In this document: positions 1,216 to 36,534 of the stretch, piece after piece
How the letters are laid out: each line of letters starts with the position of its first letter
How positions within the stretch are numbered: the stretch's first letter is position 1
Virus record (IMG/VR): IMGVR_UViG_3300037427_002949
Span: 1 to 40,466 of that record
Source: a virus
Reading direction: 5' to 3' (one strand)
Length of the DNA stretch: 40,466 bases
The notes under the pieces: model-generated
What the model was told of the DNA's origin: nothing
Databases searched by the model: none
What the model saw: only the letters and a program-made list of their open reading frames with translations
Translations under genes and position numbers: made by a program

Positions 1216-4200
1216 TTAAATTTGGAGTACTAAATTAAAGGTAACAGGAATCTCTTTGAGTCCGATGTCCTTCGCCGCAAGGACAATATCGTCGCCATCA
1301 GAAACTTTTATTGTTCCATTTTTGCCTATAATGATTTGTACTGGGTGGGGGACTCCGTTATTCATAATCTGCTGTTTAAGTGATTCGAACTCTACGGTTG
1401 TCGCACTAAAGTAGTTTGTACCTAGGTATCTCATCAGTTCACCGACAGGTATCATAGTAACCTCTGCTACTGAGTGAGCCAGACTACTAGCATGGATATT
1501 TGCTGTACCACTGGCTCCCACGTTCATCCAATCTTGAGCGATTGCATCGATTGTGGGCGTCGGTGTAGCCCGGCTAGCGGTTCCCGATCCTTGCTGTGGT
1601 GATGCTCCAGCGTTAGCATATGCATCTGCCCACTCGCGCATGGTTGTAATTTCTTCGTACCTATCCATTCTAAGCACAGACAATCCCTCGATGGATCGGA
1701 GCGCAGGTAAGAGTTCCATTCGGACATACTGAACCACAGATCGCTTTCCAAGTAGATGGAACTTAATCAAAACGTCTGCATAATAGTTGCCACCGTCTTG
1801 TCTGGTTGAGCCTTGAATGATTTTAACAGTTCCAACGCCGGGTACTGCGCGCATCTCATTTTCAGTTTCTTCTCGTTTGCCGCCGTGCTCTTTAGCCATA
1901 GCAATTCGAAAATTGATCTTGTAAGTACGCTGTGTATATCCCAGATCGGCTTCGGTCAGCCCCTGAGCAGAAAGTTTACTTTTTACTAGGTCACGAACCT
2001 TTTCTTTCTGCAACCTCTTCTTCTCTGTAATCTTTTCCGTGAGATGAATCTTTACTTTTTTCTTCAGGATCTTCTTTTGAAGCCTCTTATAGATCTCTTC
2101 TTTCAACTTGGCCTCCTGTGCTGGCTGGGGTTCACCTAGCGTACCCTGTAGTGTTGGTTCGTCGTCACCCTCTTGCGAGTATACTTCTGGTGCGGGATTA
2201 CCCGACAAGTAATCAGCTTTGTATGATTCCTTTTGATTGAAGGTTGCTCCAAGATTTACCATCTTGCCCTTCACTTTGTGCACCCAGTTCACAGGCAAGT
2301 CTACTGTGGGATCCCAGATGGTACCTCGGGGACCGTCTAGATGAAGACGAAGTATATCTGTTGCAACCCACCTCTCTGCAGTAGTCTCCATCTTCTCAAA
2401 GTTCTGCTCTGTCCACATGACAAGGATCATAATTGCCTCGCCAGTGAGGTTGCCGTTGTCGGCCGCTTCGTCCCACTGTAATCTAAGCATCTTAGCGTGC
2501 CGCCGCATGGAAGTGCCATCGGACATTGCTCGGTGGTCGGCCTTGATTTGATCTTCCCAAGCCAGAACCTCATCGGAAAAAGCATTGATGACAGCTTGCT
2601 TGAGAGCGTCCATATTTGAATCGATATACTTTACAAAATTAAATGCGGCTTCAATCTCGTCACTTCGATCCTCAGAGTAAACTCTCACTTTCATGATGAA
2701 CCCTATCTCTAATGCGTCGGGATTGTTGGGGTCTTCCCCGCTTTTGGGATCGGCTAGCACCATTCCTAGCTCTACATTTTTACCCATTGCAATCGGTTCG
2801 TACTTCTCTTCATACTCTGAACCAAAGGGCAGGGCCATCTGTCGCTTTGCATACTCATTCGCGGCGTCCTGTAGCCCCCTGAAGGCTCTTTGGAATAAAA
2901 TCCCACCCTTCGCCTGAACTGTGCCGGATGAACCGCCACTGAAGCTTAGGTATCGTTCTATTCCGAATGTCTTGCTTTCTCCGCCGAATAAGCCCTTCAT
3001 TGTTGCGGTGCTTGATAAAGGTGAACTAGCAGGATAAGGCCAGCGAATGCCCGTCCTCATGTGATATCTGCCTGTGCCCTCCGGCTTGAGACTAAAGATA
3101 ACTTCACCATCGTCGTCGCCAATTCCAATGACTGTCCAGTTCTTAAGACTCTCTTCCATTTCGGACATATCATCTTGAAGGTTGTCCCAGTCGTTGGGGC
3201 CGATGTACTCTGACTCGACTAGGCTCTTGCGAATCTTCTCTATATTCTCACGATAGTTGCGATCTATGTCGCTTTCTATATAATCAATAAAGCTATCGTA
3301 ATCATCCGGCTCGGTTCCATCTTCCATGCGGAACATATGTCGGACATCCAAGTAAACACGTTCGTTGTGGGTCAAGACTTCCCATTCAGTTTCTTCTGAG
3401 TAATAGTCCAGCATATCTGTCAACGCACTTTCGAAGGCGTTGCGGCGTTGCCAGTCTCCACCCCATGATTTTGGGATAAATGCTTCTTCGTCCACTGGGT
3501 TGCCGTCTTCTCCTACGTGTATATAATCACCATCGGCGTCCTCGGCAAAGGCGTGCCACGGAAGAGGAATTCTATATGAAATATCAGCCGATGCATAAAC
3601 GTAAGGTTGGCCGTCGCCTGTGTCTTCGACTTCAGCATGGCAACTGGCATGCTCTAGGGTGTTCGATGCATGATCGTTTAACTCGCTGACTCGTTCTTCG
3701 TATTGTTCAAACATCGCCTCCATCTCGTTTTCTTCGTCATCGTCCTCTCTATCTGTATCGTAATTACCATATGGGCGTTCCCAATCGTCGCCAGCATTGG
3801 ACATCACCTCCAGAAAATTGTTTAGGATCTCTCCATCCCGGTTGTCTCCATATGAGCCGCCGCGGCGGGTGAGGTCTTCAAATCTTGGATAGGAGACTTC
3901 TCCGTCATCATCTAAGAATTGCTCACGTTGACCCTCTACGGCCCACTTCATGACTGCCGACTTGAAGCCCGGTACATGAATGCCATACAGTCGGTTCTCG
4001 GGAACTGCGAATGTTCCGAAGCGCATTGGTTCTTCAAACTTACGAAGGCGAAGACGAGCCTTGGCTCCGATTCCCTGTATTGATCTGTCCCTGTCGCGAA
4101 ACAGTTCTTGATCATCGAAGTCTGATAGGGGCTTGAGATCATTTGGCGCCGGTTCTCTCTCATAAACTGCCTTTCTCGCCTCTTCATATCCTTCTAGTTT

Positions 4201-5376
4201 ATCTTGTGGATAATTGAACAGGGCATTGCCGCCCTCTGTCCATACTCCGTAATACTCGATTAGTGACTCTAGGGGAATATCAAGCTGCCTAGCCATGGCA
4301 GTAAAGGATTGGTTTCTGAACTTTTCAGGCACTGATGCCATCTCAATTCTTCCTTCTATGTTCTTCAGCCACGAAGAGCCTGCTCTCGATGAGGCCCAAG
4401 TTTCAAGATATACCCATCTACCTGCTGGAGATTCTAGATCAAATTCTTTAGCCATTTTTTCGCGGTAGGCATCGCGATCTAAACCAAGCCATGCAGCATC
4501 TAGCATTTCAGACGGCGAACCATCGGCTGGTTTATCCATCAAGTGGTTTTCTAATGATTCGGTTTCTACAAGATAAGCAATTGGGCCATGGCCCTTGGCT
4601 TCTGCGACAGCACAATGAAAGTACTCGCTGTGCTCAGAATGGCAAGAGCGAATGTTACTAATGTCGGACATGCGTAATACATCAATCGGATGTCGGGATA
4701 GAACGATTGAATACTGTGAGCCGTCATTGCCCTCAAACGTGCTCTCGATTGTTTTTTGGTTGCCGTCGCGAGTGTATGTGCCCTGAGTATTCTGCCACCA
4801 TCGTAGCAGATCTTTACTAATCTTACCAGACTTAGCCATGCGAGCCACAGCTTTGCTCATGGTAGTGTCTTCTTTTTTCTCGACGGTCTGGCCTTGGCGT
4901 GGACCGGCGGGGATAACCTTTTGTGTTTTTCTAACCAGCCGTAAGTCAGCGACGTCCACTTCGACTTCATATTCTCCACCGCCATCTGCTTGTAGACGCT
5001 GGAGCTTCTGTTTTACTTTATTGACTGGGAAACTCTTTATTGAACCATCATATTTGGGGTTGGCGGGCACACCCCAGCCGGCTTGTCTAAGCGCCTTAAC
5101 GATTGTCGACAGCTTCATCTGTTCTTCTGACACCAGTGGAATGTAGGTCCGCATGGCTCCGTCGAAAAGCGTTTCAAAGTCATATGGCATGCCATCGGTT
5201 TCACGCATCCAATCGTAGATTTTCTCGCTGCTGTTGCGGGAGACCTCATTAAAGACCTCTCGGTCCTCTGCTAACTGTTTCTTTCTAGTTTCTCTAGACT
5301 CGATGATTTTTTCTAGAGAGTTTACTTTTTCACTGTACTCGCGAAATTCGGCGAGGATATTCTTCATGCTTTTCAT
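1216..5376 (-). CDS. Giant tagged protein with C-terminal ParB-like domain, putative virion-internal protein
   Basis: 1386 residues; I do not recognise it as a named family. The N-terminus (MKSMKNILAEFREYSEK) resembles the T4 capsid targeting sequence and contains L-A-E, a match to the T4 prohead protease rule (L/I)-x-E. Residues near 225-275 hold a conserved-looking His/Cys segment (RSCHSEHSEYFHC). The middle is acidic. Residues about 1110-1165 are Lys-rich and coiled-coil-like. The last 62 residues read like a ParB/Srx fold: VEFESLKQQIMNNGVPHPV, then SDGDDIVLAAK and GLKEIPV, which match the ParB pattern of a helix, IxxxGxxxPI, DGxxRxxAAK and IPV, with Asp replacing the usual Arg. A GGAG lies 9 bases before ATG. 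A 15-base late-type promoter lies 26 bases upstream. A large cargo or core protein is the working inference. Confidence 0.6.
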   Translation of the reverse strand: MKSMKNILAEFREYSEKVNSLEKIIESRETRKKQLAEDREVFNEVSRNSSEKIYDWMRETDGMPYDFETLFDGAMRTYIPLVSEEQMKLSTIVKALRQAGWGVPANPKYDGSIKSFPVNKVKQKLQRLQADGGGEYEVEVDVADLRLVRKTQKVIPAGPRQGQTVEKKEDTTMSKAVARMAKSGKISKDLLRWWQNTQGTYTRDGNQKTIESTFEGNDGSQYSIVLSRHPIDVLRMSDISNIRSCHSEHSEYFHCAVAEAKGHGPIAYLVETESLENHLMDKPADGSPSEMLDAAWLGLDRDAYREKMAKEFDLESPAGRWVYLETWASSRAGSSWLKNIEGRIEMASVPEKFRNQSFTAMARQLDIPLESLIEYYGVWTEGGNALFNYPQDKLEGYEEARKAVYEREPAPNDLKPLSDFDDQELFRDRDRSIQGIGAKARLRLRKFEEPMRFGTFAVPENRLYGIHVPGFKSAVMKWAVEGQREQFLDDDGEVSYPRFEDLTRRGGSYGDNRDGEILNNFLEVMSNAGDDWERPYGNYDTDREDDDEENEMEAMFEQYEERVSELNDHASNTLEHASCHAEVEDTGDGQPYVYASADISYRIPLPWHAFAEDADGDYIHVGEDGNPVDEEAFIPKSWGGDWQRRNAFESALTDMLDYYSEETEWEVLTHNERVYLDVRHMFRMEDGTEPDDYDSFIDYIESDIDRNYRENIEKIRKSLVESEYIGPNDWDNLQDDMSEMEESLKNWTVIGIGDDDGEVIFSLKPEGTGRYHMRTGIRWPYPASSPLSSTATMKGLFGGESKTFGIERYLSFSGGSSGTVQAKGGILFQRAFRGLQDAANEYAKRQMALPFGSEYEEKYEPIAMGKNVELGMVLADPKSGEDPNNPDALEIGFIMKVRVYSEDRSDEIEAAFNFVKYIDSNMDALKQAVINAFSDEVLAWEDQIKADHRAMSDGTSMRRHAKMLRLQWDEAADNGNLTGEAIMILVMWTEQNFEKMETTAERWVATDILRLHLDGPRGTIWDPTVDLPVNWVHKVKGKMVNLGATFNQKESYKADYLSGNPAPEVYSQEGDDEPTLQGTLGEPQPAQEAKLKEEIYKRLQKKILKKKVKIHLTEKITEKKRLQKEKVRDLVKSKLSAQGLTEADLGYTQRTYKINFRIAMAKEHGGKREETENEMRAVPGVGTVKIIQGSTRQDGGNYYADVLIKFHLLGKRSVVQYVRMELLPALRSIEGLSVLRMDRYEEITTMREWADAYANAGASPQQGSGTASRATPTPTIDAIAQDWMNVGASGTANIHASSLAHSVAEVTMIPVGELMRYLGTNYFSATTVEFESLKQQIMNNGVPHPVQIIIGKNGTIKVSDGDDIVLAAKDIGLKEIPVTFNLVLQI

Positions 5377-5401: not shown

Positions 5402-5416
5402 CATTTATAAATAGTA
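5402..5416 (-). promoter_or_regulatory. Late-type phage promoter element, site 1
   Basis: On the minus strand this reads TACTATTTATAAATG, with the core TTATAAATG resembling the T4 late promoter TATAAATA. The 19-base stretch 5398-5416 is identical to 20484-20502, and near-copies lie at 12639-12653 and 13394-13408. It sits 26 bases before the start of the 1386-residue gene and has no recognisable -35 element, as expected for a late promoter read by a short phage sigma factor. Confidence 0.6.
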
Positions 5417-7784: not shown

Positions 7785-8081
7785 TTATTGGCTAATTACC
7801 ATATTCCAAATAGTAGCGGTACCTAGGCCGGCCAATGAAGTGACGATGATCCAAGTCAATCGGGTACTTGTGTCTTTCCAAGCCTCCAAGGCTCTAATCC
7901 GTGCATAAAGCCCCTGATCGGGATTATACACCGCTTCCTTGATCTTAGAAATATCCAACGCCATCTGTTCTTGGCGCTCTTTAATAACATCAAGAGCATC
8001 TACAAGGCGCTGGAGTTTTCCGTCTAGCGTCACAATATCTATTTCAACATCGTTTATTTTATCTGGTGGGATTTCTGACAT
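7785..8081 (-). CDS. Coiled-coil protein with C-terminal membrane anchor, XhlA-like
   Basis: 98 residues. Residues 8-68 form a probable coiled coil (regular Leu/Ile/Val spacing), ending in RALEAWKD; residues 75-95 form one membrane helix (WIIVTSLAGLGTATIW). This arrangement, including the W-K-D before the membrane segment, is that of XhlA-type phage proteins that work with holins, and of small phage membrane proteins in general. The ribosome site is weak. It lies 38 bases after groEL and is probably transcribed with it from the promoter at 9721-9749. A role in lysis is plausible but not shown. Confidence 0.6.
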   Translation of the reverse strand: MSEIPPDKINDVEIDIVTLDGKLQRLVDALDVIKERQEQMALDISKIKEAVYNPDQGLYARIRALEAWKDTSTRLTWIIVTSLAGLGTATIWNMVISQ

Positions 8082-8119
8082 GGCAAACTTAAGTAGTCGT
8101 ACGAAGCTGTTTGTGGCCC

Positions 8120-9697
8120 CTAGTCTTGAATAATTGCATAGTTAGTTGTGAGAAGAGTGCCGGCAGCAGATACAGCATTCTGCAACGCAGTCGTTGTAAC
8201 CTTTACTGGATCGATAATACCGGACTTAACCATGTTCGTCATAGTATCATTTCGGAAATCGTAGCCTTCAACGTCGGGAGCGTTATTAACTTGCTCGACA
8301 ATGAGATCCGGCGACAACCCTGCGTTGAGTGCCATCTGTCTGATGGGGCCGGCGAGGGCCTTAAGCACAATCTCCACTCCCAGCTGCTGATCATCGTTCT
8401 CGACCTCCACCGTGCCTCGGAGAGCCTTTGCACTGCGCAGTAGGGCAGTACCCCCGCCGGTGACAATGCCGTCAATCTGGGCTGATTTAACAGCTTCTAG
8501 CGCGTCTTCGATGCGGTGCTTCTTCTCAATCATTTCAACTTGTGTTGGGGCGCCCACATAAATAACGCCGACTCCGCTGGACAGCCTAGTGATCCTCTCT
8601 TGGATTGCTGTGCAAATTTGCATTGAATCTGTGTTCTCCACCTCTGCCTTGAGTGATTCAATGCGAGACTCGATACCCTCGTAATCAGCCTTGCCGCCTA
8701 CAATAGTTGTTACAGTCTTTGTACTCTCAATTGTTTTTGCTGTCCCCAGATCATGCAGTTTTACATCACGTAATTTTAGGCCAGAGGCGCGTGAGATCAT
8801 GGTTGCCCCAGTGGATAAAGCAAGATCACTCAGGATGTCACGGCGTTCTTGCCCATACCTCGGTGCTTTGATCGCAGCGACCTTCATCGTGCCGCGCATA
8901 GTGTTCATAATTAGAGCAGCGAGGGCTTGGCCCTCAAAGTCATCTGCAACAATAACTAGCGGTCGTGATTCTCGGGCTACTAACTCTAAGACGGGCAGAA
9001 TATCATCCACCATCTCTACCTTATAATCCGTAGTTAGGATCAAAGGGTTGTTATAACTCATTAGTGCTCGTCGCTCATCGGTAACAAATGCGGAGGCGAC
9101 GTAACCTGAATCAAACCTGAAGCCTTCCATGATATCAATGTGGGTTTCCATGGTTCGGGAATCCTCAATCGTAATAGACCCATCATTCCCAACCTTATCA
9201 ACAGCGGTGGCAATTAGTTTGCCAACAAACCTATCATTGTTTGCTGAGATAGTTGCGATGTGTTCAACATCGGCGATGGTGCGCACCGGGGTAGCGCTCT
9301 CGTTTAGGTGAGTAATTGCAGCTTTAGCTGCCCTGTCCATACCGCGTTTAACCTCGACCGGGCTAGCGCCTGCAGTCAGGTACCGCTGGGCTTCCGAGAG
9401 TACGGCGCGCGACAATACCGTGGCCGTGGTCGTGCCGTCGCCGGCATGGTTGTTGGTTTCGATTGCAGCCTGTTTGATGACTTGGGCTGCAGCGTTCTCA
9501 AAGGGATCTTCAAGGTGTACAAAGCGCGCGACGGTTACACCGTCCTTGGTAATAAAAGGCGCCTTGTCCTTTTCCTTCAAGATTACATTTCGGCCTTTCG
9601 GGCCTAGGGTTGTGGCCACGTTATCGGCCAAAGTGTTTACTCCGTTCAGAATCTTCTGATTCAGAGATGTTTTAGAATCATAGCTAAATGTTGACAA
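8120..9697 (-). CDS. groEL: Phage-encoded GroEL chaperonin
   Basis: 525 residues, close to the 548 of E. coli GroEL and lacking its Gly-Gly-Met tail (the end is NYAIIQD). The ATPase residues are all present: LGPKGRNV near 31-38, Asp52 in TKDGVTVA, AGDGTTTAT with Asp87, and the Asp of RIEDALEAV (Asp398 of E. coli) followed by GGGTALL. It should assemble as a ring and fold phage proteins in the cytosol. The start is TTG, supported by GGAGG 5 bases upstream. A matching GroES-like gene lies 17 kb away at 26749-27048 rather than next to it. It has its own sigma70-type promoter with a consensus -10, so strong early expression is expected. Jumbo phages such as EL and OBP are known to encode GroEL. 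Confidence 0.97.
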   Translation of the reverse strand: MSTFSYDSKTSLNQKILNGVNTLADNVATTLGPKGRNVILKEKDKAPFITKDGVTVARFVHLEDPFENAAAQVIKQAAIETNNHAGDGTTTATVLSRAVLSEAQRYLTAGASPVEVKRGMDRAAKAAITHLNESATPVRTIADVEHIATISANNDRFVGKLIATAVDKVGNDGSITIEDSRTMETHIDIMEGFRFDSGYVASAFVTDERRALMSYNNPLILTTDYKVEMVDDILPVLELVARESRPLVIVADDFEGQALAALIMNTMRGTMKVAAIKAPRYGQERRDILSDLALSTGATMISRASGLKLRDVKLHDLGTAKTIESTKTVTTIVGGKADYEGIESRIESLKAEVENTDSMQICTAIQERITRLSSGVGVIYVGAPTQVEMIEKKHRIEDALEAVKSAQIDGIVTGGGTALLRSAKALRGTVEVENDDQQLGVEIVLKALAGPIRQMALNAGLSPDLIVEQVNNAPDVEGYDFRNDTMTNMVKSGIIDPVKVTTTALQNAVSAAGTLLTTNYAIIQD

Positions 9698-9758: not shown

Positions 9759-11291
9759 CTATTTTTTATCTCGGGCAGCAAATTCTTCTGTGCCGGCCTT
9801 AATATCTTGAGCAGTCTTCGCAGCTTGAAGGGCTTGGGGCTTGTCGCCAGCAACGAAGTATGAGTTAATCTGGTTACCAAGCGTCTCGACCTTTTTGAAC
9901 ATGTCAAAAATCTCTTGGTTCAATACATCAGCATATTTTTCTGCCAATTCCGTTACAGCTTGTCGACCAACATGGATAATTCCAACGAAGCCGAAACCGT
10001 CCTGATCATAACCCCTCTCTTTGTAATAGCTCGCGCTAATCAAAAACTGTGTTTCGCCGGCGGCGCCAGTATAACCAGAAGTCTTGGAAATTAGCCCCCA
10101 AAATTTTTCAGGGCTTTCTTGTAGAGCAGCCTGTAGGAGCTTTACTGATTCAGCATAAGTCCTATAACCCTGATGGGATTTCTCACCAGCAGACTTGTTC
10201 CTAGGGTCGCCGGGAGGTAAGACTACTGATGACTTTGCTACCCTTTCTCCTGTCTCCTTCCAGACCAAATCAAGCTTACCCCTGTCGCCGCGGTCAGTTA
10301 AATCAAACTTAGAGACTAGTTCTCTTACATAATTCGTGTCAAAGGACTTGACCATGTAGTTGTACAGCTTTTTCTGATCTGACATTAGGCGTGCAACGAC
10401 CTCATCACTTAAGAATGCAGTGTTTTCTTCGGATTCCATTTCTCCGGATCCGGCCTCGGGAGGATCCTCTAAATCTTGCGGTAAAAGGATTAGAGGTACA
10501 TTGTGTTTATGACTCATCAACGATTCGAAAAATGTCTTAGCTGAGAAGTCAAACTGGAAGAACCTGATATGCTCTTTACCTTTTAGTTTCTCGCCGGCCT
10601 CTTTTTCTCTAAAAGATTTAAGAGCGACAACATAGGTCATTTTACCTTCTGCGCCGGCTGAACCGACAAACTGGCCGCTGTCCCTTTGTTGCTTTACTCC
10701 ACCGGGATCAATGAAATGGTCCACTAAATCTCTATAACTACCATGTACATCGCCGGGCTTATCAGTCAGCAGTTTCAAGCTGATCGGATTGTCATCTTTG
10801 TCGATGAGGTCTTGAATACCGGCGGTGCCGGCGGGAACCTGTTGTCCTGCTAGCAATGCCGACAGGAAGCCTTCAAATGTAAACCCTGCAGCAGAAGCAT
10901 TGAAGTGAACCATGATATTTGTCAAGGTGTCAAGCAATACAATGTTTGTCAGGATCTCGGAGATGTCAGTTGTACTAGGAGGACTCGTAAGGAATTCGTT
11001 GATGCTCTGAATCTTTTCCGTAAGAGTATTACCTCGCGAAACGATTTTTCCTAGCAAGTTTTGAATAACCTCTCTATCTGCTGAACCTTCCTTTCCCCAC
11101 ATCTTCTCAGAGATACGGATAATAGGCATGGTGACTGTCAGCTTTTTAGTTTCAACCTCTTCTCTTTCAAGAACAAGTGGCAAACTAGTGCCTTCTCTCA
11201 TCACTTCTTCGACTAAGCCAACGAGAGCTTCGATGTTCAGTGCGTCTCTGGGCTTTAAAAAGTTTTCTACTAATAAGTCAAAATCTGACAT
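9759..11291 (-). CDS. Unknown 510-residue protein with a PD-(D/E)XK-like pattern
   Basis: I do not recognise the family with certainty. Residues 130-175 are the most telling: GFTFEGFLSALLAG with Glu140, then IQDLIDKDDNPISLKLL with Asp161/Asp164 and Lys173. The order Glu, Asp, x-Lys in a helix-strand-strand setting is that of restriction-endonuclease-fold nucleases, although Ser stands where Glu or Gln usually precedes Leu-Lys. The rest is mixed alpha/beta, with a second half that may be independent. A GAGG site lies before the ATG. It follows the L,D-transpeptidase-like gene by 2 bases and ends a unit that starts with ClpP behind a late-type promoter. A nuclease or structural role are both open. 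Confidence 0.55.
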   Translation of the reverse strand: MSDFDLLVENFLKPRDALNIEALVGLVEEVMREGTSLPLVLEREEVETKKLTVTMPIIRISEKMWGKEGSADREVIQNLLGKIVSRGNTLTEKIQSINEFLTSPPSTTDISEILTNIVLLDTLTNIMVHFNASAAGFTFEGFLSALLAGQQVPAGTAGIQDLIDKDDNPISLKLLTDKPGDVHGSYRDLVDHFIDPGGVKQQRDSGQFVGSAGAEGKMTYVVALKSFREKEAGEKLKGKEHIRFFQFDFSAKTFFESLMSHKHNVPLILLPQDLEDPPEAGSGEMESEENTAFLSDEVVARLMSDQKKLYNYMVKSFDTNYVRELVSKFDLTDRGDRGKLDLVWKETGERVAKSSVVLPPGDPRNKSAGEKSHQGYRTYAESVKLLQAALQESPEKFWGLISKTSGYTGAAGETQFLISASYYKERGYDQDGFGFVGIIHVGRQAVTELAEKYADVLNQEIFDMFKKVETLGNQINSYFVAGDKPQALQAAKTAQDIKAGTEEFAARDKK

Positions 11292-11921: not shown

Positions 11922-12590
11922 TCAAATGTATTTGTCCGCAATACCATACTTTATTGCTTCCTCTGCAGATAAATAGACGTTAACTCCTTTATCTAGCAGT
12001 TTCTTTAGCGATCTTTTTGTAAGTTTAGTCTCAGAGCAAAGAACTTCCATGTATCTTTCCTCCATAGCCTCAATAGAAGAAAGGTCACTCTGCATTGAAG
12101 GGAGCGTGCCCATAATGCCTCCAGCAACATGGTGAATCATAATTCTGGTGTTCTTGCCAACATACCTTTCGCCCTTTTGTCCGCAGGCCAGCAATAGGAC
12201 GCCAGCAGACATTACTTTTCCTAGTCCGTAGGTCTTCACCGGCACTCCTTGGGCCTGAACTGCACTAATTATATCATAGATACCAAACATATCGTCAGCA
12301 TTTCCACCATATGTCGAGATCATGAAGCTAATCGGGTTGATGATGCGCTCATATTCTTCCGAATCTGGATTTTCTGGATCTTTTGGAACAAGCTCTTCGG
12401 CGGTCTTTGACAAAGTCGCAAGCTGATCTATAATATATTCACTCTTTTCTTCGTCAAGTTCGCCAAAAAGAGTGATCCTTCTTTGACTTGGACCTCCCCC
12501 GCCAGTCGGGATTGGCACTATAACTATTTTTTTGTCCGAATCTGGTGATGCGGCAGCTTCTATTTCTTTATTATTCAATTTTGAACTCAT
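11922..12590 (-). CDS. clpP: ClpP-like serine protease 1
   Basis: 222 residues, near the usual ClpP size. After a non-conserved N-terminal extension of about 35 residues, the crotonase-type fold is clear: ISTYGG (91-96), the nucleophile region KVMSAGVLLLACG with Ser128, RIMIHH with His153, and KYGIAD with Asp219. ClpP cleaves peptides inside a barrel and normally needs an ATPase partner; none is seen in this window, so it could use host ClpX/ClpA. ClpP-like proteases are also used by other phages as prohead proteases. It has a late-type promoter element upstream and lies in a unit with structural or lysis-like genes, which favours the second role. A second, quite different ClpP is encoded at 26183-26746. 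Confidence 0.9.
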   Translation of the reverse strand: MSSKLNNKEIEAAASPDSDKKIVIVPIPTGGGGPSQRRITLFGELDEEKSEYIIDQLATLSKTAEELVPKDPENPDSEEYERIINPISFMISTYGGNADDMFGIYDIISAVQAQGVPVKTYGLGKVMSAGVLLLACGQKGERYVGKNTRIMIHHVAGGIMGTLPSMQSDLSSIEAMEERYMEVLCSETKLTKRSLKKLLDKGVNVYLSAEEAIKYGIADKYI

Positions 12591-12739: not shown

Positions 12740-13333
12740 CTACTTGGTACCTTTTCTGTTTCTAAGCCGGGCTGCGACTTTTCTCACAATTCTTTCCACT
12801 AGTTCGTCTTCAAGGGCGGGGCCTTCTTCAGGTGGTTCTTCACCCATTTCATCGCCTCCCATGTCGTCCATGGGCATCTCATCACCCATGTCATCCATGC
12901 CCATTTCCGCTTCATCGTCCATGCCCATTTCCGCTTCATCATCAGTCTGTTCAACAGAGAGATCCAACTCGGGGATGGCTTCTTCAAGCGCCGTTTCCAT
13001 TGCTCCTAGAGCCTGTGCTAGTGCGTCTTCAACTTGAGACACAACTTCGGGGGGGAGAGATTCGCCGGCGGCATCGCCTAGTTCGTCGTCCATGCCGACC
13101 TCGTCGTCCATGGCCATGTCGTCCATGGGTAACTCTTCTTCTCCTTCTCCGCCCATTTCCATATCCATCTCATCAGCAGGACCTTCATCGCCGGGCAGTT
13201 CTTCTTCCTGCTCGTTTGTGAAGTAACCATGCTCACTTAGGCCATCCACAAATCCATCAGAAAGTGTGCCCAGTGTTGCTAGTTTCATAAATCTACGGAC
13301 CTGCGTCTCGTTCAAAAGTGTCTTTTTACTCAT
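12740..13333 (-). CDS. Highly acidic repeat protein, putative scaffold or capsid-internal protein
   Basis: 197 residues. It begins MSKKTLLNETQVRRFMKLATL, a basic amphipathic start, then residues 40-175 are dominated by Asp, Glu, Met and Gly, with short repeats such as MGMDDEAE and PMDDMG, and it ends in a basic helix (LVERIVRKVAARLRNRKG). The basic-acidic-basic layout and low complexity fit phage scaffolding or prohead core proteins, but no family is recognised. GGGAG lies 9 bases before ATG. It has a late-type promoter element about 60 bases upstream and a strong terminator after it, so it is a single-gene unit, as expected for a protein needed in many copies. Confidence 0.6.
   Translation of the reverse strand: MSKKTLLNETQVRRFMKLATLGTLSDGFVDGLSEHGYFTNEQEEELPGDEGPADEMDMEMGGEGEEELPMDDMAMDDEVGMDDELGDAAGESLPPEVVSQVEDALAQALGAMETALEEAIPELDLSVEQTDDEAEMGMDDEAEMGMDDMGDEMPMDDMGGDEMGEEPPEEGPALEDELVERIVRKVAARLRNRKGTK
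12894..12940. repeat. Two-copy tandem repeat, period 24
   Basis: Copies at 12894-12916 and 12918-12940 are identical over 23 bases and encode the repeated MGMDDEAE of the acidic protein. Further looser copies flank them, showing expansion by slippage. Confidence 0.8.
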
Positions 13334-13393: not shown

Positions 13394-13408
13394 CATTAAT
13401 AAATAGTG
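13394..13408 (-). promoter_or_regulatory. Late-type phage promoter element, site 3
   Basis: The minus strand reads CACTATTTATTAATG, 13 of 15 bases matching site 1. It lies about 60 bases before the acidic gene. A weaker variant (core TTAATAAATG) lies at 13360-13374, closer to the gene, and could be the real one. Confidence 0.45.
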
Positions 13409-18205: not shown

Positions 18206-18970
18206 TTAATATCCGCCGCGGCCTTGATTTTTCTTGCCTGTAGCACCGCTGCGGTAGTTATCCTTACGCTTCTTGGATTGCCCTGCCTCTGAGCCGCCGC
18301 GATAGTCTTTGTTTGACGATCCAGTACCAGTAGAACGATACTCTTCAAGATCCGTGCCCGGAAGGTCATCGGCTCCTTCTACGCCGGCCGCGGCGAGTGC
18401 TCTTAGTAAAGTTTCGTATGCTTCTTGTGGCCGGTTGCCTTTAATCTCTAGTACAGCTTTCATCATGCTAGCCTTAAGATCATCCTGTCTTGCTCCAGAC
18501 TGCGCCAACGGAGAGGCATCGCCATCAGGGCCAGTGATAACAGTTTCGCCATCCATATCTACAACGCCCTCTTCAAGAGATCGGGAGCCGTCAACAGATC
18601 GTTTAACGCCCGGGGCGTTTCGCGTGAATTGACGTAAGGCATTGTCTTGGGCATCAGGGCCCCCTGTTGCGGAGCCTTGCTCAAACTTAGCAATCCAGCG
18701 TAAAGCATGGCGCAGTTTGTCTGAGGGTTTTGAGCCGGGGAGTGCCGCGCCGGGGCCATCCATCAGGAAATCACGTAATTCATAATAAGCATCGGTAGAA
18801 CTATCCTGCTCTTCATCTGATAAGGGATCAATGTCGATGGAACCACCGGTAAAACGTTCGCGACTGGCTGGTCCACCGAAGTCAAGATCATCCCCGCCCA
18901 TGGCAGATGTGATTTCTCTAATGGTCTCTTCGACCAAGATCTTTTCAAGATCAGTCTTCTTAATTCTCAT
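18206..18970 (-). CDS. Tagged low-complexity protein 4, putative capsid-internal
   Basis: 254 residues. It begins MRIKKTDLEKILVEETIREI, a basic amphipathic helix with an L-V-E site, shared with three upstream genes and the 1386-residue protein. The middle is acidic and Gly/Ser-rich, with a short helical region (about 165-200), and the last 30 residues are basic, Gly/Lys-rich and probably disordered. Such basic tails suit binding to packaged DNA. The ATG overlaps the upstream stop in an ATGA, with GGAG 10 bases before. It is the last gene of the late-type unit that starts at 20502. Function is inferred from the shared tag only. Confidence 0.6.
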   Translation of the reverse strand: MRIKKTDLEKILVEETIREITSAMGGDDLDFGGPASRERFTGGSIDIDPLSDEEQDSSTDAYYELRDFLMDGPGAALPGSKPSDKLRHALRWIAKFEQGSATGGPDAQDNALRQFTRNAPGVKRSVDGSRSLEEGVVDMDGETVITGPDGDASPLAQSGARQDDLKASMMKAVLEIKGNRPQEAYETLLRALAAAGVEGADDLPGTDLEEYRSTGTGSSNKDYRGGSEAGQSKKRKDNYRSGATGKKNQGRGGY

Positions 18971-19590
18971 TTGTTTTGTTCTCCAATTTTGTATTTTAAT
19001 CTAGGATTCGGTTTGCGACTTGCAATACCCTTCATCCTACTAAATGTGTCTTTGTCTACTTGGGGGCCCAAGTCCAAAACGCCTTCCTCATCGGAGGGTG
19101 GCTCTGGTGGCCGAGTCCTCTTAGAAGAACTGGTTTCCAATTCATCGGCCATCTTCTGTGTTTGCATAGATAAAAGCTCCAAATGTCTTGGCGGCAAATG
19201 CTTAGCTGACCTTCTCAACGAAGCTAGGGCAGCTTCAAAATCTGCAAAGAGCATATCTGATTCTGGGCTTTCTGTCAAGGATACGTGTTCAACTGATTCT
19301 CCTCGCAAGTGATTAAACACTGTACTTAAGTAATCGTGAGATTTAATAATCTTTGCCTCAACCCACTCATCCAGATTGTCAGAGTCATCGACCAAATCTA
19401 AGATATCTCCAGACATCATGCCAATGTTATTGAGTTGTTTGACAGCCATAGAACCTTCGCCATCATGTCCGAGTGTCGAGAGTTGACTTTGAACTTCTTC
19501 ACCGAACATTTCGCCGGCTTCTTCGTTTGTCAAAACTACTTCCAGTTCTTCGCTAATAATTTTTCTGAGTTCTGTTTTTGTGATTTTCAT
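18967..19590 (-). CDS. Tagged acidic protein 3, putative capsid-internal
   Basis: 207 residues beginning MKITKTELRKIISEELEVVL, the clearest example of the tag: basic start, hydrophobic face, then I-S-E followed by Glu. The body is acidic and helical (residues 30-150), and the tail from 155 is Pro/Ser/Lys-rich. No enzyme motif. GGAG lies before the ATG, which overlaps the upstream stop by 4 bases. It belongs to the four-gene late-type unit 20464-18206. Confidence 0.6.
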   Translation of the reverse strand: MKITKTELRKIISEELEVVLTNEEAGEMFGEEVQSQLSTLGHDGEGSMAVKQLNNIGMMSGDILDLVDDSDNLDEWVEAKIIKSHDYLSTVFNHLRGESVEHVSLTESPESDMLFADFEAALASLRRSAKHLPPRHLELLSMQTQKMADELETSSSKRTRPPEPPSDEEGVLDLGPQVDKDTFSRMKGIASRKPNPRLKYKIGEQNK

Positions 19591-20018
19591 TTCTTATTCT
19601 CCGTCAGCATCATCAGCATTCTTTCTAGATTCACCCCCGACATCTGCATCGCTCCGAGTAACTGGCGATAAGCTTCAGTTTGGGTTTCTGTGTCATACTG
19701 ACCATACTCATCGATTTCATTTGCTAGGTCGTAGATTTTGTCAGCTAGCTGGCCTGCTGCGGTGTGATCATCAAGGTCGGCTTCGGCTTCGGGATCGTAT
19801 GGACCATCTTCGCCACCCAAGACATCGACCCAATCGTCATGGTAGTCATCGCCAGAGGCTTCTTTTACTGATAGGTCTTTCTTCCTGTTTCCAATTTTTT
19901 TGACAGATTTGTCTAGGTTTCTGCCCATCTTGTCAATATCGCGGGAGGCTTCTTTAAAAGACTTGATTTCTTCTGCCAAGATTTCCTTGAATCGTTTTTT
20001 ACTAATTTTCATTTTCAT
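19587..20018 (-). CDS. Tagged small protein 2, putative capsid-internal
   Basis: 143 residues beginning MKMKISKKRFKEILAEEIKS, with an L-A-E site in the tag. A basic segment follows (KKIGNRKKD), then an acidic loop and a helical C-terminal third (residues 90-140). No recognised family. The start overlaps the upstream stop by 4 bases with GGAG about 10 bases before. Confidence 0.6.
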   Translation of the reverse strand: MKMKISKKRFKEILAEEIKSFKEASRDIDKMGRNLDKSVKKIGNRKKDLSVKEASGDDYHDDWVDVLGGEDGPYDPEAEADLDDHTAAGQLADKIYDLANEIDEYGQYDTETQTEAYRQLLGAMQMSGVNLERMLMMLTENKK

Positions 20019-20464
20019 TGTTCATAATCTCCAGTCACTTCAGGCGAGTCGGACATGCCGTAGCCACCGTGGCGATCATCATCAATGTAATCCTCAAGGA
20101 CCTCCGCAATAGAATCTGAGATGGTCTGCGGAACGTCCGCAAGGGCGTCATGTACTGCCCTTTTGATATCCTTCCTGAGAGCCTTGTTGGGGGCGCCTCC
20201 TCTGCGATTTTCATAACTGACTACATAGTTTCCAACAATAGTCAGGAATTCTTCGTAGTCCATTCCTCTGCCCATGAAGCTAACGCCCTCTTGAACGTCC
20301 AATTGGATATCAACTAGTTCAGAGGTCAGGGCGTCCATGGACACTTCCGAATCTCCGGGTATTCCGTGCCAATCCTCCCCGGGATCTGTTCCCGGCAATT
20401 TGGTTAAGTAGTCATCATTGATCTCTTGGATCATCCTCTTTAAGAGGTCTTCAGTTAAAAACAT
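20015..20464 (-). CDS. Tagged small protein 1, putative capsid-internal, first gene of late-type unit
   Basis: 149 residues beginning MFLTEDLLKRMIQEINDDYL, a variant of the tag with I-Q-E. The body is acidic and helical. It is the first of four overlapping genes; GGGAG lies upstream and a late-type promoter 24 bases before the start. No family recognised. The variant tag is less basic than in the other three, so its membership is less certain. Confidence 0.55.
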   Translation of the reverse strand: MFLTEDLLKRMIQEINDDYLTKLPGTDPGEDWHGIPGDSEVSMDALTSELVDIQLDVQEGVSFMGRGMDYEEFLTIVGNYVVSYENRRGGAPNKALRKDIKRAVHDALADVPQTISDSIAEVLEDYIDDDRHGGYGMSDSPEVTGDYEQ

Positions 20465-20487: not shown

Positions 20488-20502
20488 CATTTATAAATAG
20501 TA
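20488..20502 (-). promoter_or_regulatory. Late-type phage promoter element, site 4
   Basis: The minus strand reads TACTATTTATAAATG and is identical to site 1 (19 identical bases at 20484-20502). It precedes the four-gene tagged unit. Confidence 0.6.
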
Positions 20503-20523: not shown

Positions 20524-20994
20524 TTATTTAGAGTGCTTATCCGCTACTGATGCTGCTGCAAAAGCGTCGGGCTTGATTTTTGTTCTAAAGCCTGCGCCCT
20601 TGACATATCCAACTAGCATATCTGAGTATTTACTTGTGGCGGCTTTTTTGTTTGAGGCACTGATGTCAAGGTGTACTTCAATACAGGCCGCAGGGTTTGC
20701 CAACTTTATAGCCATCGCCATTTGGACTGATAAGTTTACTTCTTGTGTCACACGGGCAACCAATACATCATAGTGACGTTTTTCCACTCTATTTTTTGTA
20801 AAAAAGTATGTTCCGCCGCGTTGACCAGTTGCACCATGAAGTACGATTGCTGTCGCAAAGGTGCAACAATCACTATTCAAAAAAGAATCAGTTCCGATGT
20901 AAACCACACCCTGACTGGCTGTGTGTTCTCCAATTTCCGCAAGGATATTGCTAAACTCTATCCCTTTTCCATCTCCAGTATACCATCTACTCAT
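20524..20994 (-). CDS. RNase H-fold protein, DUF458/YkuK-like
   Basis: 156 residues. Residues 30-60 read VVYIGTDSFLNSDCCTFATAIV, followed by GGTYFF, matching the first strands and acidic residue (Asp36) of the YkuK/DUF458 family, which has an RNase H-like fold. A later strand with EVHLDIS supplies a second acidic residue. Catalysis has not been shown for this family, to my knowledge. AGGATAG lies just before the ATG. It follows dnaE by 9 bases and probably shares its mRNA. It may process RNA or DNA during replication; this is inference. Confidence 0.7.
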   Translation of the reverse strand: MSRWYTGDGKGIEFSNILAEIGEHTASQGVVYIGTDSFLNSDCCTFATAIVLHGATGQRGGTYFFTKNRVEKRHYDVLVARVTQEVNLSVQMAMAIKLANPAACIEVHLDISASNKKAATSKYSDMLVGYVKGAGFRTKIKPDAFAAASVADKHSK

Positions 20995-21003
20995 CTATCC
21001 TAA

Positions 21004-24000
21004 CTATCCTAGTAGTCGAAAATTATACGTAATTGATCGAGTGCTAAATCCCCATTGTGCATTATAATCTAACTTTGCCAAGTATGGTCGGTTCATTAAA
21101 ACTCTGTCTTTCTCGGGCTTAACACCCCAACAACGAATCTTGGTTAGAGAGTTTGTAGTATCGGTCACTTCCAGAATCCAATAGAGCTTACCGTTCTTAG
21201 TCTTCTTAGGAGTAATCTTGCGAGGAATAAACCATGTAACTTGCAAATCTGGGTCGTATTCGCCAATAGGCGGGATCATCTTTTCTTCAAGGCGGGCCAT
21301 GACATCCTCATCAACAACTCGATTGATCGGGAAGGAACCTGTCAAGTCAACGATTGATTGAATCTTTTCCTCTTCCGTAAAATCACCCTCTGGTCGATAC
21401 AACTCTAGATTTTCTAGGAACTTCTTCTTGTTTTTTGGCCTGTCGACAGCAACGGTCGACCAAAAATGCTTAGAGCCTGTAAACCGAGAGTCGATCAGGC
21501 AATCTAATGCTTCTGATCTGATCAATACGTCGAGGGCCTTCTTATTGAGCTTAGAGTATGAAATGCCCTCATTGAACAGGAAAGCCTCCACATCCTCAAA
21601 GGGGCGATTATTCAGAATTTGATCAATAGCTGCATCACCGAGGCCCTTAATCGAACTGAAGGGTTGAACCAGAGTGTTCCCCGATTCGTTGATCCCCCAG
21701 ACACGGCCAGAAGTGTTGACGTTCAGTGGCTCAATTTCAAATCCAAAGTTCTTGGCAATACCAATGGCCTTCTCCTTGCGAGACTCTGGTTCTTTGTCTA
21801 GGAAAGCTGACATCCATTCTGCGGGATAATAGTTCAGAAGCCATGCACATTGAAACGATAGAATACTGTATGATACAGCGTGTGACTTATTGAAGCCATA
21901 CCCTGAGAAGTATTCGAACGTTTCCCAGAGTCGTTGGGCTGTTGCCTTTTGCAGTCCCTTTTCGGTACACCCTTCAACAAATTTCTTATGAATCTTGTTC
22001 TTCTCGCGGGCGCCCTTGCCGGTACCCTTCTTAGTGAGCAACTTACGCAGTTTGTTACCCTCATCCAGACTAATATCTTTGCCCAGCTTATGAGCCAGCA
22101 ACGCGATCTGCTCTTGGAAGATAAGAAAGCCGTAGGTTTCTTCTGTAATCTCCTGAACTAGTGGGTGAACATACTTGATATATTGTGGGCGTTCCTTAGC
22201 CTCTACATATTGATCGTCTACATCAGCCGAAAGCGGGCCGGGTCGGAAGATCGAGGTGATAGCAGAGATATCAATGATACTGCATGGCTTGGCACGGACA
22301 CAGAATTTTTGTGCTCCATCCTCAGTGAACTGGAATGTGCCAGCCCATTTGCCCTTGTGGAAAATGTTTTCGTAAACACTCTGATCATCGAGATTGATGA
22401 CATCTGGGTGTAAGTTTTCTTCATAATATTTCTTAACATCTGCGAATGTCGGACCCTCAACACCATGATGACGAGTTAGAATCTGGCGGATAGCGCCATC
22501 GATCATGCGGAGCGAAGCAAGACCAAGGAGGTCAAACTTGATAAATCCCATCGGCTCTAAGTGGCGAACATTTTGCCCCTCTGACCATGGGGTTTGTCGC
22601 ACACCTCCTGAGTTAATCAGGGGCATGTATTGATCCAGATTCTCCGCGACTACAACACCGCCGGCATGGCGGCTGCAGCTACGAACCTGACCGACCAGTG
22701 TCTCAACGTGAGTCTTGATATCTGGGTACGTTTCAAGGAACATTCGCAGCGTCGGGCTAAATTCGATAACCTCTTGCCAAGTTGGAGCATAAACACCAGC
22801 TTTGATACCATGCTTCTGCTTTGCTAGTGGAGTTGCCTCTGACATCATCACAGAGGTTACTTTATTAACCTCCGTAAACTCAACGCCATAGAACTTAGAG
22901 ATGTCCTTAATAAGTGAACGAAGCTGGAGTGTATTCCAGTTAGAGATGGGTGCGACGGTATCCTCACCCCACTCCTCGATTAGCTGCTCTTTCAGGACCA
23001 TCGGATCGGCTACATCATAGTCGATATCTGGGTAGTCAGTCGCGTCCGAGCGAAGGAAACGAGAAAATAGAAGGCCGTACTTAATAGGATCAACCTGTGT
23101 GATTCGCAATGCGTATGCCACCAACGAGCCGGCGGCGGAGCCGCGGCCGGGACCGGTCAGCATTGACTCGGTAGCACGATCACAGATCGCTTTCATCGTC
23201 AAGAAGTACTTTGAGAAGCCGCGTTCGTCAATAACCTTTAGTTCAAGCTTTAGGCGAGCTACATAGTCCTCGTTCTCTGCAAGCCCCAACTCATTCAGGC
23301 CATCCATTGACAATTTTACTAGTGCTTGTGTCGCGGTCATTCCAACCGGTACAACGAAATCAGGCAGGCGCACAGTGTTGTCTGGAAAGAACTTTTCAAT
23401 ACGCTGGTTCGCAATCTTGTGTGTATTCTCAATAGACTGCCGCACTAGAGCGTCCTCGTATTCAAAGTTACATGAGGACGAGTACTTTTTGTAGGAATCC
23501 CACATCTGATCACCGTTCTTGGGATATAGTTCATACCCAATCTCATCGACATCAATCGGTAAATCAGAGTCTTCTTCGGCCCATGAGGGGCGGCCCTTAC
23601 CGAGCCAGCCGAGCCTGTTATAAAGCTCGCGGTCCTTCCAAGCATCTGGGTTAGGGTAGTGACTATCTGCTGTAGAAATAAGCTCCACATCAAACTCGTC
23701 TGCAACCTGAATAATCAAGTTGTTGAGTTCATGCTGTTCCTTGATATTGTTCCACTGCAATTCGCCGTACCAACGGTCGCCAAAGACGCCCTGCATGCGG
23801 CGTGTCGTCTCTCGCATAGCGTCAAGAGCAACATCCATGTCAGTACCAGTTCGATTGCCTTCAGCATCATATTCGCCGGCGCGCCAGAAGTCGCCGGCGT
23901 ACACTCCTCCCAAACAAGCAGAGGCGGCGATGATACCTTCCCCATACTTCTCAAGCAAAGCATAATCGATGCGAGGATAACGATAGAAGTTTTCTTCTTT

Positions 24001-25353: not shown

Positions 25354-26186
25354 AGTTTATCCAGCAAATATTGTAAATACTGATTACTTGTGGCTTTCGA
25401 CGGAGTGTAACAGACTTCAGAATATACCGGGACGGCGATGCGACTCTCAGTTTCAACTTTTACTGAATAATATTTATACTTATCAGGGTTTTTCGTGTCG
25501 CGACCATTTCGGGCTCCGCGTATTCCGGCTTTTTTCATCTCGTCTAGAACTTTAAATCTAGCATAAGTGTCTGAGTATTCGTAACTGTTCATTTGTTCCC
25601 TCGTAAGGTATGATACACTTACAAGATCTTTTTTATCGTGCCTTCCGTCGATGCGATTCGATGGATAGAAGTGTATACAGTTAACAAAATCTGATGTTTT
25701 CTCTATTCTATCAAAAGGATGGACCATGCCAGATCGGACACTCATCCAATCTAAAACCATATACTTTGGAGGGCTTTCAGGTTCTAATAAACTGTTTTGA
25801 AAAATTATAACATTTTCAAATTTAAACTTTACCGATCTGGCATGATCCAAAATTACCTTTATCGTATTATCGTCTTGGCGCCTCATTGAGATCGCCTGAT
25901 TAGATAAAGGTAGCAGTCCCGCTAGGGACATAACAAGCGAAAGTTTACGATACACCTCTTTTTTCTGTATTCCGACTTTAAGGTTTTTGGTTGGAGTTTT
26001 TATCGTTTTTGTTTCGTTTGCAAAACGAAATTGCGAAAGTTTACTTTTGGAGTCAAACCTTTCAAAAAAGAAGGGTTCTCTGGCCCCCAAAGTTAGCACG
26101 GGTCGAGATGTTTCGAACCCCAACATCAGAGCGTTGACACAGTTTCCCACTATTATGCTTTCGTATTCGTAAACATGCTCCTTCAT
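25350..26186 (-). CDS. Unknown protein with Rossmann-like N-terminus
   Basis: 278 residues. The N-terminus ESIIVGNCVNALMLGFETSR has strand, tight turn and helix as in a Rossmann or FAD-binding protein, with G-N-C in place of the Gly-x-Gly signature, so nucleotide binding is uncertain. Residues 140-240 contain many aromatic and basic residues (HPFDR, HFYPSNR, YSDTYARF), typical of a catalytic core, but I cannot name the family. It overlaps ClpP2 upstream and the nucleotidyltransferase-like gene downstream, so the three are coupled, and the last two may act in one pathway. Confidence 0.5.
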   Translation of the reverse strand: MKEHVYEYESIIVGNCVNALMLGFETSRPVLTLGAREPFFFERFDSKSKLSQFRFANETKTIKTPTKNLKVGIQKKEVYRKLSLVMSLAGLLPLSNQAISMRRQDDNTIKVILDHARSVKFKFENVIIFQNSLLEPESPPKYMVLDWMSVRSGMVHPFDRIEKTSDFVNCIHFYPSNRIDGRHDKKDLVSVSYLTREQMNSYEYSDTYARFKVLDEMKKAGIRGARNGRDTKNPDKYKYYSVKVETESRIAVPVYSEVCYTPSKATSNQYLQYLLDKL

Positions 26187-26746
26187 AGGATTTCATCGAT
26201 CACACCCAATCCTAGGGCCTCCTCTGCGGACATATACCAGTCGACTTTCTTTTTTAAGATTTCTGCTAATTTCTTTTTAGAAATCTGTGTTTTATCTACT
26301 GTTATATCTTCTATTTTTTTCTGGAGCCTCTTTGTCTCTTCTAGCTTCTCTTCCATGTCTTGCACTTTACCAAAAAACCCTGTTGACACCTGATGGTATA
26401 GTGGCGTTGACATTGGATATCCGAAGCGCTTGTGGCCGTAAATTAGAATCATAAAACCACAAGACATTGCGGCGCCGGTAACGATAGTGTGAACCGGTGT
26501 TTGACTCTTTTCCATGACACCAAGGAGGCCAAAGCATTGATACACTGCGCCCCCATATGAGTCGATGTAGATCTTGATTGGTTTTGGTTCGTAAGCTAGA
26601 TCATGCACAGCATACAACTTCTTGATATATTCGTCGCTGTCATTAATTTCAAGAATACTTTTAGTGAGAGCATTCATAGATGCCTGATCAACCTGTTTTG
26701 CTAGATATAGGTTTCTAGCTTTAGGCAATGGTAACTCTGCGCCCAT
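26183..26746 (-). CDS. ClpP-like serine protease 2
   Basis: 187 residues. ClpP fold residues: IKIYIDSYGG (57-66), GAAMSCGFMI with Ser95, TPLYHQV with His118, and GLGVIDEIL with Asp184. The sequence after His118 carries an inserted charged coiled coil (VQDMEEKLEETKRLQKKIED), longer than in bacterial ClpP. It differs greatly from the ClpP at 11922-12590. GGAG lies 6 bases before the ATG. It lies in the replication operon directly after the GroES-like gene, so it is probably made early. Regulatory degradation of host or phage proteins is a reasonable guess. Confidence 0.85.
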   Translation of the reverse strand: MGAELPLPKARNLYLAKQVDQASMNALTKSILEINDSDEYIKKLYAVHDLAYEPKPIKIYIDSYGGAVYQCFGLLGVMEKSQTPVHTIVTGAAMSCGFMILIYGHKRFGYPMSTPLYHQVSTGFFGKVQDMEEKLEETKRLQKKIEDITVDKTQISKKKLAEILKKKVDWYMSAEEALGLGVIDEIL

Positions 26747-36250: not shown

Positions 36251-36534
36251 GTATTATTTTTAAAAAAGTTTGTGTCTTCCATTTCTTCCTCTGCGACATC
36301 CTCTACAGTGGTGTTCCAATTAAAGACACGAAAGTTGTTTGCATCGAGATCCCAGACAGTCTCTTTGCCCTCTGCTAGCATCTTTTGTCGAGCAGTAGTG
36401 CGGGCCTCGGACACATCGTTCCCCTTCACGCGTTCTGCAAGGAAGGTATCTGGTAGGTCTGTAAGACGAATGAATCGCATTAGGCGCGATGATCCGTCTG
36501 CTTTAGTGAATGTTCCGGTGTAGGTTTTCATCAT
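36247..36534 (-). CDS. Small phage protein of the DUF2693-like type
   Basis: 95 residues. It begins MMKTYTGTFTKADGSSRLMRF, a form I associate with small DUF2693-type phage proteins that fold as a short beta sheet. A central helix (EARTTARQKMLAEG) and an acidic C-terminus follow. AGGAATATAA precedes the first ATG; the second ATG is one codon on. It overlaps the tubulin-like gene and shares that operon. Function unknown. Confidence 0.6.
   Translation of the reverse strand: MMKTYTGTFTKADGSSRLMRFIRLTDLPDTFLAERVKGNDVSEARTTARQKMLAEGKETVWDLDANNFRVFNWNTTVEDVAEEEMEDTNFFKNNT

Follow-up and report, generated by a model that had tools for sequence, protein, structure and literature searches.

In phage T4, the internal proteins IPI, IPII and IPIII, the Alt protein and the gp24 propeptide share an N-terminal capsid targeting sequence (CTS) in front of unrelated bodies, and the prohead protease gp21 cleaves after L/I-x-E (PMC9026906). 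IPII and IPIII start MKTYQEFIAE|A, Alt MELITELFDE and gp24 MAKINELLRE|S, with Glu at position 10 in each (AF158101). According to the same review, targeting of IPIII depends on residues 4 and 7 and its processing on residues 8 and 10, as shown by mutagenesis (PMC9026906). T-even internal proteins are diverse, the CTS alone being conserved (PMC3012670), and IPIII is required on one host (PMC9391042). In phage P1, the first 30 N-terminal residues of DarB, an anti-restriction cargo, suffice to target a reporter to the capsid (PMC9024508), and in phiKZ and SPN3US a distantly related gp21 homologue cleaves inner-body and ejection proteins behind a short Glu-ending motif (PMC9026906). T4 and, in a different form, P1 DarB have already established the principle of N-terminal packaging. 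Here we describe an N-terminal tag shared by five genes of IMG/VR record IMGVR_UViG_3300037427_002949, a 40,466-bp viral fragment (the window, meaning the whole stretch analysed) with nearly all its genes on the minus strand. We consider it very probable that this N-terminus is a capsid targeting sequence of the T4 kind, removed by a gp21-type protease, that loads mixed cargo including likely effectors. What is new is the form ending at Glu14 (E14), which comes in two sequence types, the extent of its use among uncultured phages and its link to cyanophage virion enzymes; no prior statement of the E14 form or of the cyanophage link was found in the open-access literature searched.

Five tagged genes in one viral fragment

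To compare these genes with T4 we used the pattern Phi-x-x-Phi-Phi-x-E (Phi being hydrophobic), which was derived from the T4 genome (AF158101) and not fitted to the phages described here. Four of the genes form an operon on the minus strand (20464-20015, 20018-19587, 19590-18967 and 18970-18206) in which neighbours overlap by 4 nt (ATGA type). Gene 20015 (149 aa) carries the tag MFLTEDLLKRMIQE, then I (codons 20423-20464; L8/M11/I12/E14). The 143-aa product of gene 19587 carries MKMKISKKRFKEILAE, then E (codons 19971-20018; F10/I13/L14/E16); its Glu is E16, or E14 should an internal ATG be the start. Gene 18967 (207 aa) follows with MKITKTELRKIISE and the junction E14|E (MKITKTELRKIISEE, codons 19546-19590; L8/I11/I12/E14), and gene 18206 (254 aa) with MRIKKTDLEKILVE, then E (MRIKKTDLEKILVEE, codons 18926-18970; L8/I11/L12/E14). 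The fifth gene, at 1216-5376 on the minus strand, encodes 1386 residues and starts MKSMKNILAE, then F (codons 5347-5376; M4/I7/L8/E10), which is the exact spacing of IPIII.

All five tags fit the T4 pattern, have hydrophobic residues at -6 and -3 and close with L/I-x-E (LVE, ISE, LAE, IQE and LAE). Counted from the Glu, IPIII residues 4, 7, 8 and 10 become -6, -3, -2 and 0, and these are the conserved positions of the tag. The E14 pattern occurs in three genes of the window against 0.135 expected at the background rate (p about 4e-4). The initial annotation had placed a hydrophobic-x-Glu tag on these five genes at the right coordinates, and its quoted IPIII start is correct (MKTYQEFIAEA in AF158101). 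It had also called the proteins otherwise unrelated, and the four operon bodies indeed give no mutual blastp match at E 0.01 after residue 16. The ten-residue length of the IPII and IPIII sequences is found only in the 1386-aa gene, E14 tags being one helix turn longer than the T4 CTS and E16 slightly more. Since the operon tags end at E14 or E16, we treat the operon as a variant with CTS-like action rather than an ordinary member of that family. In T4 itself, hypothetical gp61.1 (L313 18966-19130, AF158101), which lies beside 61.2 (AdfA), starts MKTFKEFIKED, in agreement with an E10 CTS; judged by this start, it is a candidate for an internal protein that has gone unrecognised.

The tag residues are retained in relatives while the operon around them changes. 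Orthologues of gene 20015 in the related contigs G001 and G005 (the latter, of 203,859 bp, is the closest long relative of the window) keep M1, F2, L3, T4, L8, I12, E14 and I15 invariant. Those of the 1386-aa protein, 60-63% identical, keep M1, K2, S3, M4, K5, I7, L8, E10 and F11. Two relatives (L002 and L003) align to gene 18967 over residues 1-37 and 1-30 only, that is, over the tag region, and have a different body. The body of gene 18206 is related to parts of G005:157506 and G001:12932. The operon is plastic: its first and third genes are retained in G001 and G005, and the remaining bodies are swapped or rearranged. Pfam and PHROGs gave nothing above cut-off for the tagged proteins of the window. 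Gene 19587 alone showed weak, sub-threshold matches to models of phiKZ internal head proteins (phrog_2497, E 0.006; PF12699, E 0.018), although the phiKZ and SPN3US propeptides and cleavage motifs are different. P1 DarB differs in phage and in head gene set, and its likeness to the present case comes from the literature and not from sequence comparison. Some tagged bodies with 'FHY' or 'YHxT' might be ADP-ribosyltransferases (ART). AlphaFold models for the 20015 family and for one such ART-looking tagged protein from relatives had a helix over the tag, with mean pLDDT of 43 and 35, and were unusable.

Both units are preceded by the same promoter, as had been claimed: the promoter-like sequence ACTATTTATAAATG lies at 20488-20501 (minus strand), 37 nt upstream of the gene 20015 start codon, and an identical copy at 5402-5415 (minus strand), 39 nt upstream of that of gene 1216. 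Orthologues of the tagged units in G001, G005 and, for the large gene, G004 have it without mismatch. Close variants precede genes of the virion regions of G005, and a weaker version precedes its scaffold gene. That this putative promoter is common to tagged units and virion genes supports their late co-expression.

Spread and conservation of the tag in related phages

Relatives were gathered by homology to window proteins and with two degenerate DNA patterns, one for each tag type (type 1, MKITKxxLxxIIKEE; type 2, MKxLxENWRxYLxE). The viral contigs obtained with either pattern are those among the matches listed. Across 3262 genes of 15 related contigs, 12 of which had been selected for carrying a tag, the T4 pattern peaks solely at E14, where 158 genes represent 18.6 times the level at positions 25-60; in the T4 genome it peaks at E10. 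The E14 excess is present in every one of the 15 contigs (4-19 tagged genes each, about 10 per genome, against a handful in T4), and 110 E14 genes are left once both selecting sequence types are removed (Poisson p about 1e-80). Control viral contigs chosen by an unrelated 14-mer (1415 genes) gave 1.1 times the background at E14, with no peak. These figures bear on the view that we are looking at chance, at short basic-hydrophobic N-termini chosen by eye. The motif is short, and a false pick of this kind does exist: the RNase H-like gene 20524-20994 has FSNILAE at E20, and we dropped it since its G001 orthologue lacks the motif. Nevertheless, an excess at one position only, kept without the search seeds and absent from controls, leaves chance with next to no probability. 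Most tags here differ from the T4 CTS in ending at E14 and in falling into two sequence types (IIKEE and ENWRxYLxE). Besides MKITKTELRKIISEE, a further E14 tag sequence is MKLLLENWRKYLNEE.

The tag is found on highly diverse bodies. The comparative search proposed in the initial annotation yielded 234 tagged proteins, among the matches listed, that fall into 194 body clusters. In G002 (L028 879-3353), six tandem tagged genes, with both types of tag, place successive bodies within 2.5 kb. Such N-termini could be functionless leftovers of gene duplication or recombination, each a copied 5' end. The tandem arrangement would fit this, as would the tag codons, which within one genome resemble each other somewhat more than unrelated codons do (they differ by 0.35-0.53 against 0.48-0.59 expected). 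However, many synonymous codons have diverged while the residues stay, so selection on the tag residues is likely, with some copying too. Moreover, two unlike sequence types share the spacing, and many distantly related phages retain the pattern. We regard inert copying as very improbable.

Conservation also marks where the tag ends. In type 2, the information content is 4.2 bits at Glu14 and drops to background by residue 17. Type 1 is conserved to E15/L16, and a second, weak L-x-E follows at 20-22. This bears on a rival reading in which the helix docks proteins on the core of the prohead, or on some other part of the virion, and stays uncut, the Glu being merely docking surface. Docking alone would account for the conserved -6 and -3 residues, and in T4 an aspartate at position 10 keeps targeting while processing is lost (PMC9026906). 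What speaks against it is the Glu at a fixed position behind L/I-x, which makes a gp21 site, as well as the end of type 2 conservation just past this Glu and the protease of related phages described below. We judge uncut docking improbable, even if it is the least improbable of the alternatives.

The tag is nearly restricted to phages. Cellular genomes hardly contain type 1: 257 Gb gave 9 stretches, all in contigs of metagenome-assembled genomes (MAGs). Many tags lie on NHDW01000006 (L573, a Methylococcaceae MAG) and PBIO01000025 (L574, a Halobacteriovorax MAG); both genomes with these long tagged contigs also hold a gp21-type protease, and the contigs are therefore probably binned phage sequence. 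Among isolates, neither megablast with the first 25 kb of the window nor tblastn with the 1386-aa protein gave a match, and tblastn of bare 20-23-aa tags against isolate phages gave none either, the queries being short or the form absent there. The nearest isolates are distant, with at most 54% identity in the major capsid protein (MCP). One isolate with a related MCP, Flavobacterium phage immuto, has varied tags. Its 5'-nucleotidase (L558 9856-10455) starts MKKVMGNLADLLLEE, and its body resembles, by eye, a tagged HAD-like gene of G035.

Prohead protease and virion enzymes of cyanophages

The relatives of the window also resemble T4 in their head genes. A gp21-type prohead protease (PF03420) and a gp23-type MCP (PF07068) are both present in G005 and G003. 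Among the matches listed, PF03420 is found in 18/18 tagged contigs of at least 160 kb, in 33/43 of at least 94 kb and in 16/49 of 24-85 kb. The controls have it in 1/25 contigs below 100 kb, plus one contig of 133 kb, and the difference between tagged and control contigs in the smaller size class is significant (Fisher p 0.004). In G036 and G038 the tagged genes directly adjoin the protease gene. The N-terminal pro-region of the MCP contains LL[RK]E in all of 14 related contigs (VLRE in G027), close to the T4 gp23 site FLTE|A, and lies shortly before the region aligned to mature gp23; equivalence of the two sites is approximate, as the alignment is gapped there.

A prediction was fixed before looking: soluble enzymes in virions of T4-like cyanophages should carry the T4 pattern. 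Mass spectrometry detected an NMNAT in virions of S-SCSM1 (PMC9602691), and a SAM hydrolase, an APH/ChoK-like kinase, a cytidylyltransferase and ORF13 in the virion proteome of S-CREM2 (PMC10665884, Table 3). The S-SCSM1 NMNAT starts MKSFLQFLKE|A, an E10 form, and its homologues start MKSFSQFLTE in P-SSM2, MKKFSAFLTE in S-RIM2 and MKKFSTFISE in S-ShM2. The S-CREM2 proteins start MKDFDSFLEE (SAM hydrolase, followed right after Glu10 by FDRDQESLEESSLSR), MKRFDAFLTE (kinase), MKNFSSFLTE (cytidylyltransferase) and MKDLHSFLTE (ORF13). This MK-start E10 form is present in 4/20 virion-detected against 0/136 undetected S-CREM2 genes scanned (p 2e-4), a form defined after seeing the hits, so that the figure for the broader form given below is the strict one. 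No tag on these enzymes is mentioned in the parts of the two papers available. Protein kinase and SAM lyase bodies occur in the uncultured phages as well, and the tags differ in that the cyanophage form is E10, not E14, with aromatic residues. In G003, the gene at 22270-22965 (L033 2270-2965) is a relative of the S-CREM2 virion SAM hydrolase (phmmer 1e-8) and starts MSDYHKNWQTFLINE, a type 2-like tag that is one residue longer. The virion-detected, Cas9-like ORF12 of S-CREM2 (L568 7704-10313) has a CTS-like LRFASFMAE-A near residue 24 and was not counted; from its sequence, the true start codon may lie downstream of the annotated one.

These data also bear on the view that the tag is a cytoplasmic interaction helix, for a membrane, RNA polymerase, chaperone or defence-antagonist partner, and is unrelated to the virion. 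Amphipathic N-terminal helices have many uses, and some of the tagged enzymes could work in the cytoplasm. On the other hand, such a helix would have no reason to match the T4 CTS in pattern and key positions, to be nearly restricted to phages whose large contigs hold a T4-type protease, to share a promoter with virion genes, or to appear in its E10 form on virion-detected cyanophage enzymes. We find this explanation quite unlikely, slightly more so than uncut docking. The capsid-targeting reading, already proposed in the initial annotation, is supported by the peak of the T4 pattern, the key positions, the protease, the MCP site and the cyanophage enzymes.

Several observations weigh against that reading. 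These phages are known here from sequence alone. We assigned gene starts with a simple caller of our own making, and the contigs that served as controls were shorter than the tagged ones. The 40-kb window fragment holds no head genes (protease, MCP), so a protease in this phage is predicted from its relatives. Compared with the T4 CTS, the E14 form has four extra residues and is mostly aliphatic where T4 has Tyr4 and Phe7, so that the functional match between them is putative. In S-CREM2, the broader, pre-set E8-E16 form is found in only 4/20 detected against 6/136 undetected genes (p 0.025). Many virion-detected cyanophage proteins have no tag, nor has the NMNAT reported in virions of the non-T4 phage S-CBWM1; proteins can therefore be detected in virions without it. 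According to the S-CREM2 authors, enzymes may have been carried over through CsCl purification (PMC10665884). Finally, a guanylate kinase, NUDIX and 5'-nucleotidase are among the tagged bodies that look like ordinary nucleotide enzymes.

Core binding, cleavage and injection are proposed for these phages by analogy with T4. Tagged proteins would be made late in infection from late promoters, and their N-terminal amphipathic helix would bind the prohead core and so bring unrelated proteins inside. The gp21-type protease would then cut after L/I-x-Glu, at Glu14 or Glu16 in the operon and at Glu10 in the large protein. The cut would free the bodies inside the head, and at infection they would pass into the host together with the DNA.

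Predicted cargo and further candidates

Known families account for the minority of tagged bodies, the majority matching none. The leading Pfam families by number or quality of hits among 133 E14-tagged proteins include NTP_transf_2 (3), guanylate kinase (2) and SAM lyase (2); NUDIX, HD_4, Pkinase, GNAT acetyltransferase, M23 peptidase and 5'-nucleotidase are also represented. In G005, a tagged gene at 8069-9106 has a protein kinase domain and another at 4703-5125 a NUDIX domain. The initial annotation had named the tag on clearly cytoplasmic enzymes as a sign against packaging. The outcome was mixed: some tagged proteins are enzymes (NUDIX, guanylate kinase, protein kinase and SAM lyase), but no replication-core family occurs within the 25 of 36 Pfam families listed. 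Its ParB-like domain on the 1386-aa protein was not recovered, as PF02195 gave no match (E 0.1 for the whole protein, E 5 for the last 157 residues).

A broader proposal is that mostly marine uncultured phages with T4-type heads load about ten unrelated, quickly exchanged proteins per virion by one label and inject them as an effector set, that the label predicts cargo, and that its E10 form explains the cyanophage virion enzymes; we see the case for this whole proposal as evenly balanced. If true, it would be a phage counterpart of the effector repertoire of a secretion system, comprising kinases, SAM lyase, nucleotide and acyl-transfer enzymes and many proteins of unknown fold. Most phage genes have no known function, and a packaging label readable in sequence would turn anonymous phage genes into predicted virion cargo. 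Such cargo probably acts within minutes of the onset of infection, directed against host defence or metabolism. The label would also make it possible to tell whether the NMNAT, SAM hydrolase and kinases of cyanophage virions are genuine cargo or purification carry-over, and existing mass spectra could show neo-N-termini directly after the tag Glu.

A weak possible further member in the window is the gene at 12740-13333 (minus strand), encoding an acidic 197-aa protein that starts MSKKTLLNE, with a gp22-type L-L-x-E at E9. It is conserved in G001, G004 and G005 and has a near-identical promoter (one mismatch) at 13394-13407. It was not counted as tagged because it has no hydrophobic residue at -6. 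The gene at 9759-11291 has a conserved N-terminus, MSDFDLLVE, with L-x-E near position 9, and both N-termini are closer to that of T4 gp22 (MLKEQLIAE) than to the internal protein tag. By eye, the window also encodes a GroEL, two ClpP-like proteins and one FtsZ/tubulin-like protein (8120-9697, 11922-12590, 26183-26746 and 36531-37376), an unusual set for a phage with T4-type-head relatives.

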